NCBI GenBank assembly: GCA_029964075.1
Contig: CM057135.1
Span: 853,001 to 917,000, forward strand
Reading direction: 5' to 3'
DNA from: Patiria pectinifera
Taxonomy: Eukaryota > Echinodermata > Asteroidea > Valvatida > Asterinidae
Length of the DNA stretch: 64,000 bases
Shown here: positions 21,712-56,310 of the stretch, piece by piece
Numbering within the stretch: position 1 is the first letter of the stretch
Layout of the letters: each line of letters opens with the position of its first letter
Program-made: the position numbers and the translations under genes
The notes under the pieces: generated by a model
Databases searched by the model: none
What the model saw: the letters and a program-made list of their open reading frames with translations, nothing else
Told to the model about the DNA's origin: nothing

Positions 21712-22457
21712 ATATATTTCAATATAATTTTTTAAATTTTTTTTAAGAGGTCAGACTTTTGGATTTATAAGCAATCAGACTCACCAGCTTGTGAGAGAGA
21801 TATTGACATTTTGGCGCTTCATACCTTTTTGCTCATTTTATACTACCCATACCATCGGCGCTCCATACATGACACAGATCACACAAAAGACTTGCGACCC
21901 CGTTCTATTTCGATCATGACTGTGCACTGAAATATGCAAGGTAACCGACCGTGAACAGCCTATTCTTCGGGTTGAATAACCTGTCACTAAATTTAGCTTT
22001 GGAAATTTCCAGAATTTTCGTCTGTTGTGCCATTCAGTATTTCTGTGTCATTTCAACATGATATGGCGATCGGTACAGACGGCTACGCCCAACGGCAATA
22101 ATGTTGGTTATTATATTGATTTTGTTCTCTAAAAAAACAACCTATACTACACAATCACTAAAAGTCTAGCCACCCATTAGTGTGTGTGATGTTTTTGATC
22201 AAACATTGAGTGTAAATGCTTTTTTCCACTTGTAATATTTTCAGATGATGACCCCCATCGCAACCTGTGAAAAAGAGGATATGCTGCTTTATAACTTTGC
22301 GTCGGGTTTATCGCACAAGCAAGATTTTTTCAAGTACCGCTAATACCATTTTTTAAGTGTAAACACCTCGAGATATTTCTTATAAAGTAACTTAAAAGTG
22401 TACTATTTTGATATATCTATTATGATATAAAAATTTACCAAAACGCTTACTCATACT
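21712..22457. other. Polinton non-coding interval behind the polymerase
   Basis: About 750 bases between the start of the polymerase gene and the minisatellite. No open frame of note and no family I recognise. It may hold the polymerase promoter near 21712-21760, where an A/T-rich TATATTTCAATATAA stretch lies just upstream of the start. Confidence 0.4.
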
Positions 22458-23210
22458 TCTCCTCTAACTGTAAATTAAGTTTCATCGATAAGAATGATGT
22501 CATCAGTATTATTAGTAAAGGGAAGCTTGCTTCCCCTCTAACTGTAAATTAAGTTTCATCGATAAGAATGATGTCATCAGTATTATTAGCAAAGGGAAGC
22601 TTGCTTCCCCTCTAACTGTAAATTAAGTTTCATCGATAAGAATGATGTCATCAGTATTATTAGTAAAGGGAAGCTTGCTTCCCCTCTAACTGTAATAAGT
22701 TTCATCGATAAGAATGATGTCATCAATATTAATAGTAAAGGGAAGCTTGCTTCCCCTCTAACTGTAATTGTTTCATCGATGAGAATGATGTCATCAGTAT
22801 TATTAGCAAAGGGAAGCTTGCTTCCCCTCTAACTGTAATAAGTTTCATCGATAAGAATGATGTCATCAGTATTATTAGTAAAGGGAAGCTTGCTTCCCCT
22901 CTAACTGTAAATTAAGTTTCATCGATGAGAATGATGTCATCAGTATTATTAGTAAAGGGAAGCTTGCTTCCCTCTAACTGTAATAAGTTTCATCGATAAG
23001 AATGATGTCATCAATATTAATAGTAAAGGGAAGCTTGCTTCCCCTCTAACTGTAAATTAAGTTTCATCGATGAGAATGATGTCATCAGTATTATTAGTAA
23101 AGGGAAGCTTGCTTCCCCTCTAACTGTAAATTAAGTTTCATCGATAAGAATGATGTCATCAGTCTTATTAGTAAAGGGAAGCTTGCTTCCTCTAACTGTA
23201 AATTAAGTTT
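22458..23210 (+). repeat. Minisatellite with units of about 71-78 bp, ten copies, inside the Polinton
   Basis: Ten tandem units, counted by the GGGAAGCTTGCTT word. Each holds CCCTCTAACTGTAA, TTTCATCGAT, a near-palindrome TGATGTCATCA and GGGAAGCTTGCTTCCC, which can fold with seven-base arms. Units differ by few substitutions and by presence or absence of ATTA, so the array is young. It lies between the polymerase and the right TIR. Confidence 0.95.
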
Positions 23211-23528
23211 CTCTGGTTTATAAATTATATTTTGTTAAAGTTACATGTGTTTTAATAAAGTTAAAACTTTGTTTTGTAAACCTAAGAAAACGCTGTTTGT
23301 TTATTTATTTGTAAGTATTGATAGAGGGCGCACCAGTCGCTGTGAGTCTGTGTTGAGATCTCCAAGAGGGTGACTGTAAATATGAAGAGTCTGGTCTGAT
23401 TTCGAGACTGAGATATTGAGAGGGGGAGATATATTTGGGAAGAAAAAAGGGGAGGGTGGGAGTGGTGGGGAGGGGGAGGGGGCGGAGGAGGGGGATCATA
23501 GGGGTGGGGAGGGGTAAAGTCTGGTACC
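23211..23528. repeat. Subterminal G-rich region with a diverged TIR-like copy
   Basis: From about 23408 the sequence repeats TIR vocabulary in the same order as the TIR itself: AGATATATTTGGG, GGGATCAT, then TAAAGTCTGGTACC. It therefore looks like an older, diverged second copy of part of the right TIR lying just inside it. No gene is visible. Confidence 0.6.
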
Positions 23529-31195: not shown

Positions 31196-31640
31196 CCAAG
31201 GACAATACATGTACACAATCCTCTCTCATGTGGCCCATATTAATCGTACATTACGCCTACGTGTGCATGTGACATGTGTCATGTATGCAGTACATGTACA
31301 TAACTCATGTATGTATAGGACTAATGTACCCATGCCATGGCACCTTCATCCACATGCAACTCAATACATATAAAAATATGGACTACCAATTTCAAATCAA
31401 AAGTGTTATGCCTACTATGACCCTGATAAACAAACTCTACTTCAAACATTAAAAGACAATGTAATATGCTCAGGATGAAAAAAATTCTAAATGAAAAAAA
31501 CAGCACACTTATGATGTATCTATATTCTAATTTTTTATTCACATTAAATTAACACAGATAGGTATTTAGGACAATAAATATATTATTTATTAAGTGCAAA
31601 TAAGTACGCCAAAATCATGAATACCCGTACGATTTTAACT

Positions 31641-31865
31641 TATAAGATCTTATAAGATTCTTATAAGAATCTTATAAGATTCTTGTAAATGAGTAAGAAT
31701 ATGGTAAGATTCTTATAACATATTTTCAAGTCAGAATTTCTTCTGCTAACTTCTTATTGTTCCTGAGGAATTCTTATAAGAGACCAAAGTTTGAGTCAGA
31801 ATGTTAAAGAATTCTTATAAGAAACCCTTTGAGTAAGAACTTGGTAGGGGGTCTCTATAAGAAAC
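31641..31865. repeat. Degenerate TTCTTATAAGA repeats, left array
   Basis: Dispersed copies of the palindromic core CTTATAAG, first tight (31641-31690), then scattered to 31865. The same word forms a denser array at 34070-34540. Confidence 0.75.
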
Positions 31866-33330: not shown

Positions 33331-34069
33331 CACAGGACTAAAGAACAGATTTACGGAGATATTCCACCTATCTCTGCTATTGTTGCTCAACGACAAGTTC
33401 GCTTTGCTGGCCACTGCTACCGTGCTGTAAACCAGGACATATGATCTGATGTATGGAGACGTCCATGTTGGAGACGTCCATGCCGCAGAGAACAAAGACC
33501 CTTTACTACATTGAAAGTTTTAAATCTCCTGCAATCGAGGACGCCTATATGTCTCTTTTTTGTTTTTACTCTGACTTTTCAGGGAGACCGATCTACTACA
33601 TGTTTTGTACACGATTGTAAATATGGGACCTCTCGGGAATTGGGGACCCCATTGTCCTCTATTGTTCAACATCCAATACTGAATGCAGAAACGAACTCAT
33701 GTACATGTATGCATTTTGGAAGATGTTAAGTACCTTTTTTGGAATACGTGTATTTTATAAATCAGATGACTGGTTCTGATCACTTTATTTAACGTGTGGT
33801 AAAACCAAACGAAAATAATTATTGTATTCCAACTTTTCCTCTGAAAGCTGTTAATTATATGATCAGTTTCCTGTGTTGTTTTGTCCTGAAACAAACTGTA
33901 AGTATTAAATTAACTCTTTTAGCCTACTTTTACTGTCCTGGCATCCATTAATTGTTGAGGTGTCATTTTTAAAAAAATATTTATTTCATCAGCAAACACA
34001 AGATTTTTTTGTTAGTCATGGGTTTTCATAGATGCTTACTAACGAGCATGTCTATTTATGATGTAGGTT
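33331..34069. other. Downstream LINE debris and AT-rich DNA, no gene
   Basis: Up to about 33500 the sequence still resembles LINE 3' coding debris (QVRFAGHCYRA-like translation near 33390). Beyond that nothing is recognisable. Confidence 0.4.
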
Positions 34070-34540
34070 TATAAGAAAAGTATTACAATATTTTTAAAAT
34101 TTTATAAGATGTTTAACATCATCTTGTAAGATTTTAAAAATTTTAAAAGATTTTTATAAGATTCTGTGACTATTCTTATAAGATTGTTATAAGATTCTGA
34201 CAAGATTCTTATAAGATTCTTATAAGAGTATTTTGTTGGCCATGCCGGGATTCTTATAAGAATCTTATAAGATTCTTATATGAATCTCATAAGAATCTTA
34301 TAAGATCTTACTTATTTGCATATAAAATACTTATAAGAATCTTATAAGATTCTTACAAAATTCTTATAAGATTCTTATAAGATTCTTATAAGATTCTTAT
34401 AAGATTCTTACAAAATTCTTATAAGATTCTTATAAGATTCTTATAAGATTCTTATTCTTATAAGATTCTTATTCTTATAAGATTCTTATTCTTATAAGAT
34501 TCTTATAAGATTCTTATAAGAGTATTTCGTAGGGGTTGAA
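34070..34540. repeat. Dense TTCTTATAAGA array, period about 11 bp
   Basis: Tandem ATTCTTATAAG units, each with the perfect palindrome CTTATAAG. The array is split near 34236-34249 by a GC-richer piece (TTGGCCATGCCGGG) and ends in AAGAGTATTTCGTAGGGG; AAGAGTATTTTGTTGG occurs at the split, so two related units may be joined here. Confidence 0.85.
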
Positions 34541-38897: not shown

Positions 38898-38905
38898 AGC
38901 CACAG
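38898..38905. repeat. Target-site duplication, left copy (AGCCACAG)
   Basis: AGCCACAG directly before the element's first GGGG; repeated at 40074-40081 directly after its last CCCC. Eight bases is the length made by hAT-type transposases. Confidence 0.85.
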
Positions 38906-40073
38906 GGGGCCGTATCATAAGTCCGACGCCTCATAGGTCCGACGCCTCATAAGTCCGAAATTTCGGACTTATGAGGCGTCGGACTTATGAGGCATACAGT
39001 TTATTAATTCCGCTTCATAGATCCGACGCCTCATAAGTCCGACGCCTCATAAGTCCGACAAATTAAACGCCTCGTTTTTACGTTGTCGGACTAATGAGGC
39101 GTCGGACTTATGAGGCGTCGGACCTATGAGGCGTCGGACCTATGAGGCGTCGGACCTATGAGGCGTCGGACCTATGAGGCGTCGGACCTATGAGGCGTCG
39201 GACCTATGAGGCGTCGGACCTATGAGGCGTCGGACCTATGAGGCGTCGGACCTATGAGGCGTCGGACCTATGAGGCGTCGGACCTATGAGGCGTCGGACC
39301 TATGAGGCGTCGGACCTATGAGGCGTCGGACCTATGAGGCGTCGGACCTTTGAGGCGTCGGACCTTTGAGGCGTCGGACCTTTGAGGCGTCGGACCTTTG
39401 AGGCGTCGGACCTTTGAGGCGTCGGACCTTTGAGGCGTCGGACCTTTGAGGCGTCGGACCTTTGAGGCGTCGGACCTTTGAGGCGTCGGACCTTGAGGCG
39501 TCGGACCTTTGAGGCGTCGGACCTTTGAGGCGTCGGACCTTTGAGGCGTCGGACCTTTGAGGCGTCGGACCTTGAGGCGTCGGACCTTGAGGCGTCGGAC
39601 CTTTGAGGCGTCGGACCTTTGAGGCGTCGGACCTTTGAGGCGTCGGACCTTTGAGGCGTCGGACCTTTGAGGCGTCGGACCTTTGAGGCGTCGGACCTTT
39701 GAGGCGTCGGACCTTTGAGGCGTCGGACCTTTGAGGCGTCGGACCTTTGAGGCGTCGGACCTTTGAGGCGTCGGACCTTTGAGGCGTCGGACCTTTGAGG
39801 CGTCGGACCTTTGAGGCGTCGGACCTTTGAGGCGTCGGACCTTTGAGGCGTCGGACCTTTGAGGCGTCGGACCTTTGAGGCGTCGGACCTTTGAAGCGTC
39901 GGACCTTTGAAGCGTCGGACCTTTGAAGCGTCGGACCTTTGAAGCGTCGGACCTTTGAAGCGTCGGACCTTTGAAGCGTCGGACTAATGGGCCTTTATTT
40001 GGTTAGGGGATGCGATTTTGTCGGACTTATGAGGCGTCGGACCTATGAGGCGTCGGACTTATGAGCGGACCCC
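38906..40073. mobile_element. Foldback-type TIR element filled with a 16-bp minisatellite
   Basis: 1168 bp. Left end GGGGCCGTATCATAAGTCCG; the complement of the right end reads GGGGTCCGCTCATAAGTCCG, and similarity runs about 50 bases inward. Inside are units GAGGCGTCGGACCTAT (16 bp, about 65 copies). Near the left end the units run in the opposite orientation and turn round twice, at 38960/38961 (CCGAAATTTCGG) and near 39060-39085. The array has blocks: CTAT units, then CTTT units, then GAAGCG units. With the 8-bp duplication it fits a non-autonomous hAT-like element. No gene inside. Confidence 0.85.
39110..39985 (+). repeat. 16-bp minisatellite, three homogenised blocks
   Basis: Block one (to about 39350) has GGACCTAT, block two (39350-39890) GGACCTTT, block three (39890-39985) adds GGCG to AGCG. 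A few units are one base short (GGACCTTGAGG). Such blocks indicate local unequal exchange or slippage, each spreading one variant. Confidence 0.95.
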
Positions 40074-40081
40074 AGCCACAG

Positions 40082-40908: not shown

Positions 40909-43900
40909 AACTCTAAATAATTTGGAACAAAGAGGGGATTCAAAGTGCGTGGATGTCATCACAAAACACTCACCTCTCATCAGACAACTCTACACAAGCT
41001 TCCCAGACCATTATGATTACCTGAAAGAAAACCAGTTCCTCAAGGCTACAAACGTGAATGTATGCACCACTCCTACCAACCAGAACGTTATCCGACTACG
41101 TAACAACTCCAAGGTAAGAGTGTTTGAAGAGAACATACATTTATTTCTGTTTAAATGTTTAAACCTTGGTCAATATTGCAGATACTGTTTTGTAGCAGTA
41201 TCATAAAAAAGAACCACAAGATATATGGGCCAAATACAGGCTCATAAGACCAACACGTCCCAAGTCTGACGCCTTATAGGTCTGACACCTCATTTTCCTA
41301 AATCGGACTTATCAGACATCAGACTTATGACAATTGGACCTATGACGCCGAATACGTAATTCGGACGCCTCATAAGTCGGACACCTCATATGAGGCATCA
41401 GTCTTATCAGGGTCGAACCTAAGACCCCAAATACATATTTCAGATGCCTCATAAGTCCGCCACCTCATAAGTCTGAATGTTTGAATTTATGAAGCAACAA
41501 ACTTGTACACTGTCAGATTTACAACACAGGCCCAACAATTAATATCTACTCTAATGAAATGTATTTATGACAACTTTTACTTGCAGCTTTACGAAGCTCT
41601 CGAATTTGAAGCTGACAGTCAGAGTCTACAGAGATACTACGATCCACCTGTGTTGCCAGTTACTGCTGCACTGGACAAAGAGGAATATGAACGCTGCTCT
41701 GTTTCTGGAACAATTATGACAGTAAACATTACCTTCTTTTTCATTGACCAATAATTCATTACGATTTACTGACAACTTCACCACTTCACCTGCTTGAGAG
41801 AGGAATGAAACGCCAAACTACAAACAAACCTTAAGTGAGATGCAAATGTGGTAATGCATTACAGGAACTTTGTATTCATGCATAATTGTGTAGCCGTCAT
41901 GATGTGTACTTCATACTGCCAACATTACAGTAACATCATAATTCTCCTCGATGGACAAACTAGAAGCACAGTGGTACATAAACATTGAGAGATTAGTTGA
42001 TGAACTATCACGGGCTGCTTTCTGTAGTATAAGTTTGTTTCATTGTCCTCTCAACTTTCTACACATGACTGTGATATATTGCTATATGCCTAGACTTTCT
42101 TCATTAGCTAAAGCCTTACAGGAGTATGTGATTCATAATGTTATAGATCGCTTCATGTGAACATGTACGTATACCTAAACCTGGTGTTCAAAGAATGTGT
42201 GGTACAGTCCCTTTGATTCAATATGGTTGTGGAATGTCACTTGATAGCACCTCCGCTTTTGCTCACACTTTTTATATCCCCTTTCACTGCACATTTATCA
42301 TCTTGAAACAAGCTGATCACTGAGTACCTCAAATATAATGTTCTTATATTTATTTTATAGGTGTCACCTGTCAAACAAGGAGCCAAATCCAAAAGGAGAG
42401 AAATAGAACTTCAGGACATTAACAACCATGCCAAGCGAGTCTGTATCAAGTTATGGAAGGACCTGGCAGAGGTTGACATACCACCTCCAAAAACCACAGT
42501 AGTTGTCAAAACTGTCTGTAAACGCTACTTCAATTCAGAAAGCTACCTATCAAGTACTCAGCACACTCAAATTCAGGTAAGACATCATCATATTCTCCAT
42601 TTCTATTACGCCTGCCCAAATACTGCATTTTGCTAATCCAATACTCACAGAAAAATTACTTGCAAGTTCTCGAGTACTCACAAGTAGTTACTAATATAAG
42701 CTCCTATACAAACATAAAAGTTGCACCTTATTAAGACCTCAAGTTACTATGAACAGCTGGCGTAACAAATACAACACGTTCTTTACCACTGAGATATCTT
42801 GCTATTAAACAACCAAAAAGTTTGCATGTACTTGAAAATGTATTTTTTCAGAATGCTCATAAAAGTAGGAGGAAACAGGTGGAACTAATAATTCCTTTCT
42901 TGCGAAGGCAAGTTCAATTGTGAACCCTAAACCATTGCCTCCTCGTTGCAGACACATAAGACCCATACAACAGACAAGTTTGGTGCAGATTTTCCACTTG
43001 TTTCCAAGTTAACACTTGTAAAAAGAATTGCTGCTCACAAATACCTGTTTCTGCTCTGTACCAAGATGAGTACTCAAGTAGATGGAAAAAAACCCATGAG
43101 TACAACTTAGCAAACACTACTCATTAGGTGGGGTGTCGTGGTCCAGTGGTTACGGTGTTCAACTAGTGTGCAAAGGTACAGGGTTCAAATCCTGACGGGA
43201 CACATGGTGCTTGTGGGCTTGGGTAAGGCACTTAACTACAAATGCCTCTCTCCACCCAGGAGTACAAATGGGTACCTGTGAGGGTCAAGGTCGAATTGAG
43301 CGCTGATATCGGCTACCATGTGGCCCAGAGCCTGATGAACGGGGTAATAATTGTATAGCACTATAAGCGTCATTATCGGCGGATACGTGCGCTTTATAAA
43401 TGTACATTATTATATTAGTATCAGTACTCGAGTACTTGTGTTACTTACCCAGCACTAATTCCTATTACATGTATCATACCACACATTTATTAGCTATTTA
43501 CTGTGAAAAGAAAACCACCATACTCATTCATCAAATACATTGTTTCTATCACCCATCAAGAATACATTAAGAATATAAACATTAATTTCCAAATGTACGT
43601 ATATTCTTCTTCAGAATTTCGATTTGCACTATACATGTAAGTTTTCATTACAGCTAAACATTTCACCTTACATACAAACTGACATGAATTTCCTGACAAC
43701 AGTTTTACACTTAATTCGATTCTTTCTTACAAACAAACAACCATAAAATTTGCATACTCGATCATTGAGAGGCAACTCAATCTGTGACATTCCCATTTTG
43801 CCACTTCATATCAATATGTACTTATACATATCAACTATTTCACATACTACAGGCTCTCCCATCAGATCGAATCGCCACCATATCCGTTGACGGCATCTTG

Positions 43901-49844: not shown

Positions 49845-50104
49845 ATGATGTTCCTTTCAATTACATCTTTAGATCATGTAAAGTATTATGATAAAAGCCT
49901 TCTTAACGTGATCACAGAACACTGTTTTGCATTATTGTAATTGACGGAGAGTATAACGTCAAGAAATTAATTAGTCTCATGAATGGAACACATCTTTTCT
50001 AGTGAAACAGCGCTCATTAGCCTAAACATGAATTATAAAAGATACGTGAAATAAATCAGAGAGCCTAGATTCATGATAATAATCACTACAAGGTAGACCC
50101 AGGT

Positions 50105-50141
<37 letters not shown>

Positions 50142-52137
50142 GGAGCATTTATAAAGCGCTTTTAACAAAGATCAAAGCGCTGTACAAAACTACAAAACTA
50201 CAATCTACAAATAAACAAGGCAAAAAAAAAAAAAAAACCAACTTAATTTAAGAATAACTCAAGGGAACCAGGAGATAATGAGAGGTACAGATGAAGGTAA
50301 ATTGATTAAAGAAACTAGAGATTTCTTGAAGGTGATGATTGAAGATGCAAGTCGGATGTGTTGAGGGATCTTGTTCCACTCCCTGGGGCCAGCAATCGAG
50401 AAAACTTTGTCACCTGTGGTCTTAGTGTTAATAGGAACATGTAATCGGGAAGTGTCTGTTGAAGACCTAAGCCCCGCCCTACCTGATTTATACAAAGAGA
50501 GTAAATCGGTCAGGTAGGAAGGAGCCAGACAGTGTTGTGTTTTGTAAACGTATAGAATTAATTTGAAAAGAATACGTGATTCAATCGGCAGCCAATGTAG
50601 TTGATGCAGGAGCGGTGAGGCCTCAGTATAGCGGCTTACACAGAGAATGAGTCTGGCTGCACGGTTCTGAAGTTTTTGTAACCTGTTTCTGTCTCCTTGA
50701 CTTATGCTGTATAAAAGAGAATTGAAGTAGTCAAGGCGAGAAGTGATTAGCGAACGTACTGCATGGTGACAAGTGTTCTGATCGATGAACTTCCGAATAC
50801 GATTGATATTGCGTAGATGAAAGTTGACAGATCTGCATATTGTTGTGACATGTTGTGACATAGACATAGTAGAGTCAAAAACCACACCAAGGCTTTTGAT
50901 GAAAGGTGAAGGTTTGATAGTGGTAGATCCTACTTGAAGTGTCAGGTCAGAGAGAGAATTGATGCTACGGGGAGAAGCGGCAATAAAAAATTCTGTTTTA
51001 TCATCATTAAGCTGAAGTTTGTTTGCACACATCCAGAATTTGATGTCAGTGATACATGCTGATAGTTTGTCAAGAGCTATTTTAGAATCTCCAGAGATAG
51101 ATGGATTGAAACTGGTATAAATCTGTGTATCATCAGCATAAATGTGATAGTTCAGATGATGATTCTCAATGATGTCAGAAACCGGTTTGGTGTAGAAAGT
51201 AAAGAGTGTAGGCCCAACAACTGAACCCTGGGGAACGCCAAAATCTACAGGCTGTTCATCTGAAAGCACCCCAGCAACACGTACACGATTTCGGCGTCCT
51301 CCAAGGTAGTTGTGGAACCAATTCAGAGCTAACCCATGGAGACCAAAAGATGTTTCAAGTCTCGCTATTAACAGATTGTGGTCGATGGTGTCAAAAGCGG
51401 ACGAAAGATCTAACATGACAAGTAGAACCGCCATCTTGTTGTCGATGGCTCGCATAATGTCATTTTTCACCCGCAATAAACCTGTCTCAGTACTGTGGTT
51501 GCTCTTATAGGCAGATTGAAAAGGTTGATGTAGGGAATTGTCGTTGACATGGTTATTGACACGATTTAATACAATTCTCTCCATGAGTTTGGATAAAAAA
51601 GGAATATTGGATACTGGACGGTAATTCTTTAGCTCATCTACATCCAGATTAGGTTTTTTGAGTATGGGAGTGACAATAGCCTGAGACAAGTCATGCGGGA
51701 AGGTACCCGTAGAAAAGGAAGAGTTAATCATATGTTTTATGAATGGCGCAAGAACATGGACATTTGCTTTAAGCAGCCAAGTAGGCATTGAATCAAGAGA
51801 ACAGGATTTGTTAGAGGAACCAGTGATGAATTTGATAATTTCCTGTTCATCAACACATTCAAATTCAGAGAGTGGATGGGTGATAACATTAGAAACATGG
51901 CCAGGAATGGTATGCATGGGGACTGATTGAATGTTACTATCAAGGCCACGTCTGATCTGAACAACTTTATCACTGAAAAACAGGGCAAAGCGATCACAAA
52001 TAATTTTCTTAGAATGACCAGTAGGTAACTAATAGTGGAACTATTGTTAAGGAGTTTTTGAATGGTCCGGTAGATATCTTTGACATTGCAAGTGGTTAGT
52101 TTATCTTTAAAGTATGGCTGACTGGATAAGTTGGGAG
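49845..52137 (-). repeat. Left arm of a large inverted duplication
   Basis: Mirrors 53950-56310. It includes the 3' half of the LINE and about 260 bases of DNA beyond the LINE tail, down to ATGATGTTCC at 49845. Inside the arms only scattered substitutions and small indels are seen, one of them a block of about 95 bases (56185-56280) present only in the right arm. Confidence 0.92.
50259..51917 (-). CDS. LINE copy 1 reverse transcriptase
   Basis: 552 residues in one frame. RT motifs: MPTWLLKANVHVLAPF, PILKKPNLDVDELKNYRPVSN, PFQSAYKSNHSTETGL, LLVMLDLSSAFDTIDH (motif A), FGVPQGSVVGPTLF (motif B), YADDTQIYTSF (motif C, catalytic DD), LNDDKTEFF (motif D). The C-terminal part has RSLITSRLDYFNSLLYSI and LHWLPIESRILFKL, typical of the CR1/L2 group. 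The first methionine is not the true start; the frame breaks near 51945, a break shared by copy 2. Confidence 0.92.
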   Translation of the reverse strand: MHTIPGHVSNVITHPLSEFECVDEQEIIKFITGSSNKSCSLDSMPTWLLKANVHVLAPFIKHMINSSFSTGTFPHDLSQAIVTPILKKPNLDVDELKNYRPVSNIPFLSKLMERIVLNRVNNHVNDNSLHQPFQSAYKSNHSTETGLLRVKNDIMRAIDNKMAVLLVMLDLSSAFDTIDHNLLIARLETSFGLHGLALNWFHNYLGGRRNRVRVAGVLSDEQPVDFGVPQGSVVGPTLFTFYTKPVSDIIENHHLNYHIYADDTQIYTSFNPSISGDSKIALDKLSACITDIKFWMCANKLQLNDDKTEFFIAASPRSINSLSDLTLQVGSTTIKPSPFIKSLGVVFDSTMSMSQHVTTICRSVNFHLRNINRIRKFIDQNTCHHAVRSLITSRLDYFNSLLYSISQGDRNRLQKLQNRAARLILCVSRYTEASPLLHQLHWLPIESRILFKLILYVYKTQHCLAPSYLTDLLSLYKSGRAGLRSSTDTSRLHVPINTKTTGDKVFSIAGPREWNKIPQHIRLASSIITFKKSLVSLINLPSSVPLIISWFP

Positions 52138-53629: not shown

Positions 53630-53977
53630 ATGATACACTCCGAAATGCGTAACTTTAGGGATATTGATACCGACGCGCTTTCCTGCGATTTCAAGGAGAG
53701 ACTCGAGCCTCTACTTGCACTTAGCAATATCGATGATCAGTTTCATTTCTATAATGAAACTGTTCGACAGATCCTCCACGAGCACTGCCCCGTCAGACAA
53801 CTCGACCGTGCTGTACGGCCGAGTTCCCCCTGGTACAACCGCAACATCCATGGAGCAAGGGGCGTCAGGCGTCGACTGGAGCGGAGGTGGCGGAAAAGCA
53901 AACTTGACAGTGACCGCGATGCCTACTTGGCACAACTGGCATTGCTCTCCGAACTTATCCAGTCAGCCATACTTTAA
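53630..53977 (+). CDS. LINE copy 2 linker between endonuclease and RT
   Basis: 115 residues, helical and charged (MRNFRDIDTDALSCDFKERLEPLL, then SPWYNRNIHGARGVRRRLERRWRKSK). In CR1/L2 LINEs this segment joins the endonuclease and RT domains. It is separated from the endonuclease frame by a stop at 53606 and ends as the linker continues in another frame. Confidence 0.75.
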   Translation: MIHSEMRNFRDIDTDALSCDFKERLEPLLALSNIDDQFHFYNETVRQILHEHCPVRQLDRAVRPSSPWYNRNIHGARGVRRRLERRWRKSKLDSDRDAYLAQLALLSELIQSAIL

Positions 53978-55917
53978 AGATAAACTAACCACTTGCAATG
54001 CCAAAGATATCTACCGGACCATTCAAAAACTCCTTAACAATAGTTCCACTATTAGTTACCTACTGGTCATTCTAAGAAAATTATTTGTGATCGCTTTGCC
54101 CTGTTTTTCAGTGATAAAGTTGTTCAGATCAGACGTGGCCTTGATAGTAACATTCAATCAGTCCCCATGCATACCATTCCTGGCCATGTTTCTAATGTTA
54201 TCACCCATCCATTCTCTGAATTTGAATGTGTTGATGAACAGGAAATTATCAAATTCATCACTGGTTCCTCTAACAAATCCTGTTCTCTCGATTCAATGCC
54301 TACTTGGCTGCTTAAAGCAAATGTCCATGTTCTTGCGCCATTCCTTTTCTACGGGTACCTTCCCGCATGACTTGTCTCAGGCTATTGTCACTCCCATACT
54401 CAAAAAACCTAATCTGGATGTAGATGAGCTAAAGAATTACCGTCCAGTATCCAATATTCCTTTTTTATCCAAACTCATGGAGAGAATTGTATTAAATCGT
54501 GTCAATAACCATGTCAACGACAATTCCCTACATCAACCTTTTCAATCTGCCTATAAGAGCAACCACAGTACTGAGACAGGTTTATTGCGGGTGAAAAATG
54601 ACATTATGCGAGCCATCGACAACAAGATGGCGGTTCTACTTGTCATGTTAGATCTTTCGTCCGCTTTTGACACCATCGACCACAATCTGTTAATAGCGAG
54701 ACTTGAAACATCTTTTGGTCTCCATGGGTTAGCTCTGAATTGGTTCCACAACTACCTTGGAGGACGCCGAAATCGTGTACGTGTTGCTGGGGTGCTTTCG
54801 GATGAACAGCCTGTAGATTTTGACGTTCCCCAGGGTTCAGTTGTTGGGCCTACACTCTTTACTTTCTACACCAAACCGGTTTCTGACATCATTGAGAATC
54901 ATCATCTGAACTATCACATTTATGCTGATGATACACAGATTTATACCAGTTTCAATCTGTCTATCTCTGGAGATTCTAAAATAGCTCTTGACAAACTATC
55001 AGCATGTATCACTGACATCAAATTCTGGATGTGTGCAAACAAACTTCAGCTTAATGATGATAAAACAGAATTTTTTATTGCCGCTTCTCCCCGTAGCATC
55101 AATTCTCTCTCTGACCTGACACTTCAAGTAGGATCTACCACTATCAAACCTTCACCTTTCATCAAAAACCTTGGTGTGGTTTTTGACTCTACTATGTCTA
55201 TGTCACAACATGTCACAACAATATGCAGATCTGTCAACTTTCATCTACGCAATATAAATCGTATTCGGAAGTTCATCGATCAGAACACTTGTCACCATGC
55301 AGTACGTTCGCTAATCACTTCTCGCCTTGACTACTTCAATTCTCTTTTATACAGCATAAGTCAAGGAGACAGAAACAGGTTACAAAAACTTCAGAACCGT
55401 GCAGCCAGACTCATTCTCTGTGTAAGCCGCTATACTGAGGCCTCACCGCTCCTGCATCAACTACATTGGCTGCCGATTGAATCACGTATTCTTTTCAAAT
55501 TAATTCTATACGTTTACAAAACACAACACTGTCTGGCTCCTTCCTACCTGACCGATTTACTCTCTTTGTATCAATCAGGTAGGGCGGGGCTTAGGTCTTC
55601 AACAGACACTTCCCGATTACATGTTCCTATTTACACTAAGACCACAGGTGACAAAGCTTTCTCGATTGCTGGCCCCAGGGAGTGGAACAAGATCCCTCAA
55701 CACATCCGACTTGCATCTTCAATCATCACCTTCAAGAAATCTCTAGTTTCTTTAATCAATTTACCTTCATCTTTACCTCTCATTATCTCCTGGTTCCCTT
55801 GAGTTATTCTTAAATTAAGTTTTTTTTGTTTTGTTTTTGTTTTTGCCTTGTTTATTTGTAGTTTTGTAGTTTTGTACAGCGCTTTGATCTTTGTTAAAAG
55901 CGCTTTATAAATGCTCC

Positions 55918-55957
<40 letters not shown>

Positions 55958-56310
55958 ACCTGGGTCTACCTTTTAGCGATTATTATCATGAATCTAGGCT
56001 CTCTGATTTATTTCACATATCTTTTATAATTCATGTTTAGGCTAATGAGCGCTGTTTCACTAGAAAAGATGTGTTCAATTCATGAGACTAGTTAATTTCT
56101 TGACGGTATACTCTCCGTCAATTACAATAATGCAAAACAGTGTTCTGTGATCACGTTAAGAAGGCTTTTATCATAATACTTTACATCCTTTAAGCCCTTT
56201 TCAGATTGTTTTTGTGTTTTTAATCATAGTTACTAGAGATTTCCGTCGAGATCCGCGTATTTAATTAGTATAAGAGTATGATCTAAAGATGTAATTGAAA
56301 GGAACATCAT
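53950..56310 (+). repeat. Right arm of the large inverted duplication
   Basis: Mirrors 49845-52137, from AACTTATCCAGTCAGCC to GGAACATCAT at 56310. It includes the flank beyond the LINE tail, so the event copied genomic DNA and was not two independent LINE insertions. Confidence 0.92.
54167..55802 (+). pseudogene. LINE copy 2 reverse transcriptase
   Basis: Same RT as copy 1. A 23-base deletion at about 54345 (three-base TTC repeats at its ends) removes IKHMINSS and shifts the frame, after which FSTGTFPHDLSQAIVTPILK onwards is open to the stop at 55803. Motif B reads FDVPQGS instead of FGVPQGS, a likely harmful change; motif C YADD is intact. The earlier break before MHTIPGH is shared with copy 1 and so is older than the duplication. 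Confidence 0.9.

Follow-up and report, generated by a model that had tools for sequence, protein, structure and literature searches.

The window analysed here is a 64,000-nucleotide stretch of the Patiria pectinifera genome, taken from a 613.5-Mb assembly of 1020 contigs (GCA_029964075.1; positions 853001-917000 of contig CM057135.1), and it contains Polinton-like, Helitron-like and LINE-like reading frames. Window positions 38898-40081 hold a transposon insertion, confirming an earlier observation made from the letters of this stretch. The element proper spans 38906-40073 (1168 bp) and is bordered on both sides by AGCCACAG, with the left (38898-38905) and right (40074-40081) copies of this 8-bp target site duplication matching exactly, as originally predicted. 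It ends in terminal inverted repeats of 53 nt, close to the ~50 bp anticipated, which are 92% complementary; the two ends match each other with 4 mismatches. The left repeat (38906-38958, plus strand) starts with GGGGCCGTATCATAAGTCCG and consists of 16-bp modules in reverse orientation; the same left end is found in paired copies of the family described below. The outer 20 bases of the right repeat (40021-40073, minus strand), read on the minus strand, are GGGGTCCGCTCATAAGTCCG.

Two turn-round points had been proposed on the left side of the element, and both were recovered. At the first (38928-38993), DNA folding gave a 31-bp stem with a 4-nt loop, whose arms occupy 38928-38958 and 38963-38993. 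The second (39011-39133), identified by inverted-repeat and fold analysis, has 57-nt arms (39011-39067 and 39077-39133) that are 91% complementary and enclose a central loop. Together with the terminal inverted repeats, these hairpin-forming points bear out the predicted foldback shape. The central loop measures 29 bp (39058-39086) and is inverted relative to the commoner subfamily of the family, being its reverse complement with one edit.

Most of the remaining element is an expanded inner block on the plus strand (39088-39988), which is 901 bp long as assembled compared with 88 bp in the consensus of its subfamily. A regular expression resolved it into 56 units of 15-16 bp, and Tandem Repeats Finder reported 55.8 copies of a 16-bp period with 99% matches, so that the original estimate of about 65 units was somewhat high. 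The units comprise one CTTAT unit (GAGGCGTCGGACTTAT), 14 CCTAT units (GAGGCGTCGGACCTAT), 32 CCTTT units (GAGGCGTCGGACCTTT), three units of 15 bp, five units of the GAAGCG...CCTTT type (GAAGCGTCGGACCTTT) and one of the GAAGCG...CTAAT type (GAAGCGTCGGACTAAT). They run in this order except that the three 15-bp units sit inside the CCTTT block, which gives the three variant blocks noticed earlier: 14 x GAGGCGTCGGACCTAT at 39112-39335, 32 x GAGGCGTCGGACCTTT plus the 15-bp units at 39336-39892, and five GAAGCGTCGGACCTTT units with GAAGCGTCGGACTAAT as the last unit at 39893-39988, all on the plus strand. This block structure fits a stepwise spread of variants, as judged from the order of the units. 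The array is followed on the plus strand by a family-specific spacer, GGGCCTTTATTTGGTTAGGGGATGCGATTTTG (39989-40020), which leads into the right terminal repeat.

We searched the whole genome for the terminal 24 bases of the left flank, including the duplication, allowing up to two mismatches. Three other places matched, and all three are empty sites in which the 8-mer is present once, as AGCCACAG in two and as AACCACAG in the third. Compared with the joined window flanks, one site (L123) was identical at 100/100 positions, a second (L122) at 100/101 columns with a single 1-bp indel, and the third (L124) at 99/101 columns with one indel and one substitution inside the 8-mer. Because the empty copies of the flank carry the 8-mer once, the AGCCACAG duplication was made by the insertion. 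The flanks are nearly identical at the empty sites, and the insertion is therefore young relative to the duplication of its flanks; the window copy itself is young.

The right end GGGGTCCGCTCATAAGTCCG occurs 472 times in the genome as an exact match (232 + 240), whereas the same pattern read backwards gave no match, and the family is therefore not a product of chance. Relatives with the same ends and short interiors, as the original prediction had anticipated, were found among these sites. Neither outcome that it had named as speaking against it, a lack of other copies with these ends or empty sites in which AGCCACAG was already doubled, occurred in our searches. We examined 84 exact right-end sites out of 100 listed among the 472, with 60 of the 84 read over just 431-441 bp, a span in which longer copies are missed; the genome-wide searches with triple units described below cover longer copies for three exact unit types. 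A left end was located at 72 of the 84 sites, giving lengths of 77-387 bp, most commonly 355 bp (12/72), with at least one spurious pairing (L035, 80 bp). Of the 72 pairs, 46 had identical 8-bp flanks, whereas the flanks differed at one base in 11 pairs and at more than one in 15 (57 with at most one mismatch); left ends were chosen by flank agreement, which introduces a mild bias towards matching duplications. The 46 perfect duplications comprised 40 distinct sequences. The 12 sites for which the script found no left end (L031, L032, L038, L046, L071, L079, L082, L087, L088, L094, L096 and L100) were omitted from these counts. Three of them (L031, L032 and L038), considered as candidates for long autonomous elements, were read as truncated copies; a further 4.6 kb at each contained no module, matching end or transposase-like frame (>110 codons, judged by eye).

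The family is a MITE-like, palindromic, non-autonomous one of ~355 bp, built of 16-bp modules. Its copies are short and numerous, with conserved ends, terminal inverted repeats and duplications that differ from copy to copy, and the ordinary ones lack the length needed to encode a transposase. It can equally be described as a foldback element, a structural class that implies no ancestry, since it has long inverted repeats of 16-bp modules and forms long hairpins. The 355-bp consensus folded at -139.8 kcal/mol, compared with -52.4 +/- 3.4 kcal/mol for 60 dinucleotide shuffles, and turn-round point 1 was present in most of the 355-bp copies inspected. The 29-bp central loop occurs in two forms that are reverse complements of each other; among the 72 copies, 41 were forward, 14 inverted and 17 not assigned. 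A candidate flipped insertion at L072 and L104 was dropped, as the common flank was just ~23-31 bp on either side. The 16-bp module gave no matches in viral contigs.

Ordinary 355-bp copies carry 16-bp modules in both orientations, with five to six units in an inner block that corresponds to the array of the window copy. In 49 copies this block measured 25-105 bp and most often 89 bp (26/49), leaving aside one value of -14 that is a pattern-matching artefact. The window copy belongs to the inverted-loop form and, outside the array, is identical to the 14-copy consensus of that form at 266/267 positions. In the consensus, the 88-bp inner block reads CTAAT, CTTAT, CCTAT, CTTAT, CCTTT, CTAAT, and in the window it reads CTAAT, CTTAT, 14 CCTAT, the CCTTT-type units and CTAAT. 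The large blocks of the window array therefore extend two units of this seed, and the CTTAT unit between them has been lost. The original prediction held that the interior units are the terminal inverted repeat sequence and that the array grew from it. Array and inverted repeats do share the same 16-bp module; the growth itself took place in the inner block and not directly out of the terminal repeat.

Expansion was also found elsewhere in the genome. A 48-mer of three CCTTT units had 26 overlapping matches genome-wide, all of them in the window array, so that this triple is unique to the window copy. The corresponding CCTAT 48-mer gave 50 overlapping matches at seven places including the window, and that of GAGCTAT gave 10 matches at three places, one of which is the same element (C22). 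The window array is the largest found by these three exact unit patterns, which would miss arrays of other unit types, mixed arrays and those with many variants. Six of these places were examined in detail. One copy (L106, 303 bp, perfect duplication) has a left arm with seven reverse units, and another (L117, 595 bp, duplication with two mismatches) has 20 inner units that include CCTAT runs of 3 and 12. A third (L118, 407 bp, perfect duplication) has 15 units extending into the right end, and a fourth (L119, 535 bp, perfect duplication) has CCTAT and GAGCTAT units mixed, with 27 core motifs; the remaining two (L120 and L121) have just three CCTAT units each. A further copy (L046) is 549 bp long with an imperfect duplication (GATATTAC/GATTTGAC). 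Since the expansions in L106, L117, L118, L119 and L046 lie in differing arms and involve differing units, growth happened several times.

Two side observations concern these longer copies. In L046, a larger block that includes the spacer GAGCCTTTATTTGGTTAGGGGATGCGATTCTG is present three times, which represents a second mode of growth. Among the four largest arrays examined, three (window, L117 and L118) lie in inverted-loop copies, compared with 14 of 55 typed copies in the sample, a difference that may be due to chance.

The timing of growth is addressed by copies that share their surroundings. Five loci have a left flank in common (60/60) together with matching right flanks, and the elements within them measure 249, 290, 323, 347 and 354 bp; two further loci with common flanks hold elements of 356 and 339 bp. 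Common flanks indicate a single insertion event carried along in duplicated surroundings, and since copies of one insertion differ in length, the number of modules changes without transposition, after insertion. These lengths mostly lie below the 355-bp consensus, and the shared-insertion cases therefore show loss more clearly than gain. L010, L020, L030, L033 and L095 contain the same insertion (duplication ATCCGAGT) directly in front of a likely start codon; the gene region concerned is present in at least five copies, spread over three contigs, with five different lengths of the insertion.

We infer that the window element is very probably a recent cut-and-paste insertion of a non-autonomous MITE whose inner units were amplified in tandem, most likely after insertion. 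The MITE would have been moved in trans by a transposase that makes 8-bp duplications. The neighbouring inner units CCTAT and CCTTT would then have been amplified in tandem to 14 and ~40 copies, most likely once the element was in place and through replication slippage or unequal exchange, perhaps aided by the hairpin arms. Growth of this kind after insertion is the simplest reading. Alternatively, the array could have grown before or during the last transposition, so that the element arrived long. Apart from its array the window copy has hardly changed, and the same is true of the empty flanks, which would leave little time for growth after insertion; the window locus was seen as one allele, and a cut-and-paste donor of the long copy could be gone. 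This order of events is nevertheless rather unlikely, because no second CCTTT array occurs in the genome, copies of one shared insertion differ in length, and the expansions elsewhere lie in different arms and consist of different units.

We consider tentatively that this MITE, through its palindromic and modular build, could repeatedly give rise to minisatellites and small inversions, in that its hairpin arms would stall or break replication. Single 16-bp modules would then be amplified time after time, in separate copies and in one arm or the other (window, L106, L117, L118 and L119), a larger block triplicated as in L046, and the 29-bp loop flipped between its two orientations. The modules may also be binding sites for the transposase, in which case amplified copies could be better substrates.

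Which transposase mobilised the family was considered for three superfamilies; distances to exact right ends were taken for the comparable domain matches, namely those in the part of the genome with a complete listing of these ends. The original prediction had called the element hAT-like, and the 8-bp duplications agree with hAT, elements of which are shown to exist in the genome by at least 94 matches to the hAT C-terminal domain. The hAT target pattern is nTnnnnAn, and the 44 distinct duplications have a weak preference that resembles it: T2/A7 was found in 41/88 (p 0.0008 against an assumed base frequency of 0.3) and G1/C8 in 32/88 (p 0.0003 against an assumed 0.2). However, hAT ends are of the CAGNG/YARNG type, whereas those of the family begin with GGGG, and, compared by position, all 19 comparable hAT matches are more than 5 kb away from any exact right end, the nearest at 53 kb. 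The inverted repeats of 53 bp are also long against the short ones of 10-25 bp given for hAT elements (PMC3942097). Derivation from a hAT transposon is therefore improbable, and hAT membership is not supported, with Merlin or Mutator fitting at least as well. The original interpretation was thus partly supported, with the insertion and its architecture standing and its superfamily not.

Mobilisation by a Merlin transposase is a real possibility, though it falls somewhat short of an even chance. Merlin elements have a conserved terminal 5'-GG-3' and duplications of 8 or 9 bp, and in some Merlin families tandem repeats occur and the inverted repeats are highly imperfect (PMC8101967); the GGGG ends and 8-bp duplications found here agree with this account. 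The Merlin-type DDE domain (DDE_Tnp_IS1595) has 16 matches in the genome, one of which falls inside an element that has GGTAATCCTTACTTTTAGGA as its ends and a target duplication of 8 bp. Against this, neither the 16-bp module nor the family ends occurred at any of the 16 loci, read over ~1.5 kb on each side, a search that could miss a partner whose ends vary or whose introns are longer, and each of the six comparable Merlin matches is farther than 5 kb from any exact right end. Separately, we note that L057 and L062 contain the Merlin-type element with ends GGTAATCCTTACTTTTAGGA, which in L062 is bordered by ACAAATTT on both sides.

A foldback element of the Mutator type is the third candidate, and we regard it as doubtful. 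Mutator duplications are mostly 9-10 bp, whereas the duplication here is regularly 8 bp, and none of the three comparable MULE matches has an exact right end within 5 kb, a comparison of positions only. In its favour, the genome has 30 MULE domain matches, and Mutator is said to account for most foldback elements, including Tetris with its duplications of 8-10 bp (PMC4079207). No autonomous partner carrying the family ends was found among the Merlin loci or near the comparable hAT and MULE matches.

As a kind of element, the family is ordinary. The foldback elements FB of Drosophila and TU of sea urchin have inverted repeats of short tandem modules, with 15-bp repeats and 8-bp duplications in TU. 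The family resembles them in its inverted repeats of short modules, compared by description and not by sequence, and differs in that its usual copies have the size of a MITE and an expanded array is the exception. Sea-urchin foldbacks are also cited in the Tetris report, in the part available (PMC4079207). As described there, Tetris of Drosophila virilis is likewise non-autonomous, has inverted repeats with internal tandem repeats and has been a source of satellite arrays, with duplications of 8-10 bp (PMC4079207). However, Tetris has ~220-bp units and inverted repeats that reach 1,735 bp (PMC4079207), whereas the unit here is 16 bp, the usual element ~355 bp and the array confined to one side of the centre.

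A review tabulates MITEs and foldbacks from whose inverted repeats tandem repeats arose, including Xmix/Xstir and Tetris (PMC9659126). In the Xmix MITE and Xstir of Xenopus laevis, as in the present family, inverted-repeat sequence of a MITE became tandem repeats; sequence, host and unit differ, on a comparison with Xmix by this description only (PMC9659126). Separate local arrays are found at several copies here, which may or may not hold for Xmix. The GG ends, the 8-bp duplications and the tandem repeats present in some Merlin families, in the part of that account available (PMC8101967), are a further likeness, set against the lack of a Merlin transposase with the family ends in the 16 loci. 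Amphioxus 'mirage' minisatellites are comparable in being unstable and located close to invertebrate genes, but they span exon-intron boundaries, and the account of them describes no transposon origin (PMC3087553). The present family is probably a new one of a known kind, and its record within a single genome is unusually complete.

The window copy is a clean example of a known route by which mobile DNA seeds minisatellites. That transposons can give birth to tandem repeats is established, but the event is usually observed long afterwards. Here one genome holds the short copies, the seed block, varied small expansions, empty sites and one insertion at five places with five lengths. With such a record, the rate, place and mechanism of minisatellite birth become testable within one family.

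Several other features of the window were noted. Between two likely exons, a diverged stretch at 41240-41480 carries the same 16-bp module (e.g. CAGATGCCTCATAAGTCCGCC) and is ~73% like the element over 108 bp; it is probably an old relative. An array of the short self-complementary unit TCTTATAAGAT (34069-34536, period 11) matches itself in both orientations and is possibly a second modular palindromic element; a relative lies 2.4 kb away (31623-31781). A 74-bp tandem repeat (22456-23211; ~10 copies, higher period 217) is located between integrase-bearing and Helitron-like reading frames. The regions at 8-21.5 kb and 56-64 kb are related, with integrase, A32-like ATPase and Polinton-like frames, and are 74-93% identical in pieces. 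Two copies of a reverse-transcriptase element (49876-52137 and 53947-56186) lie in opposite orientation and are 97.3% identical over 2270 bp.
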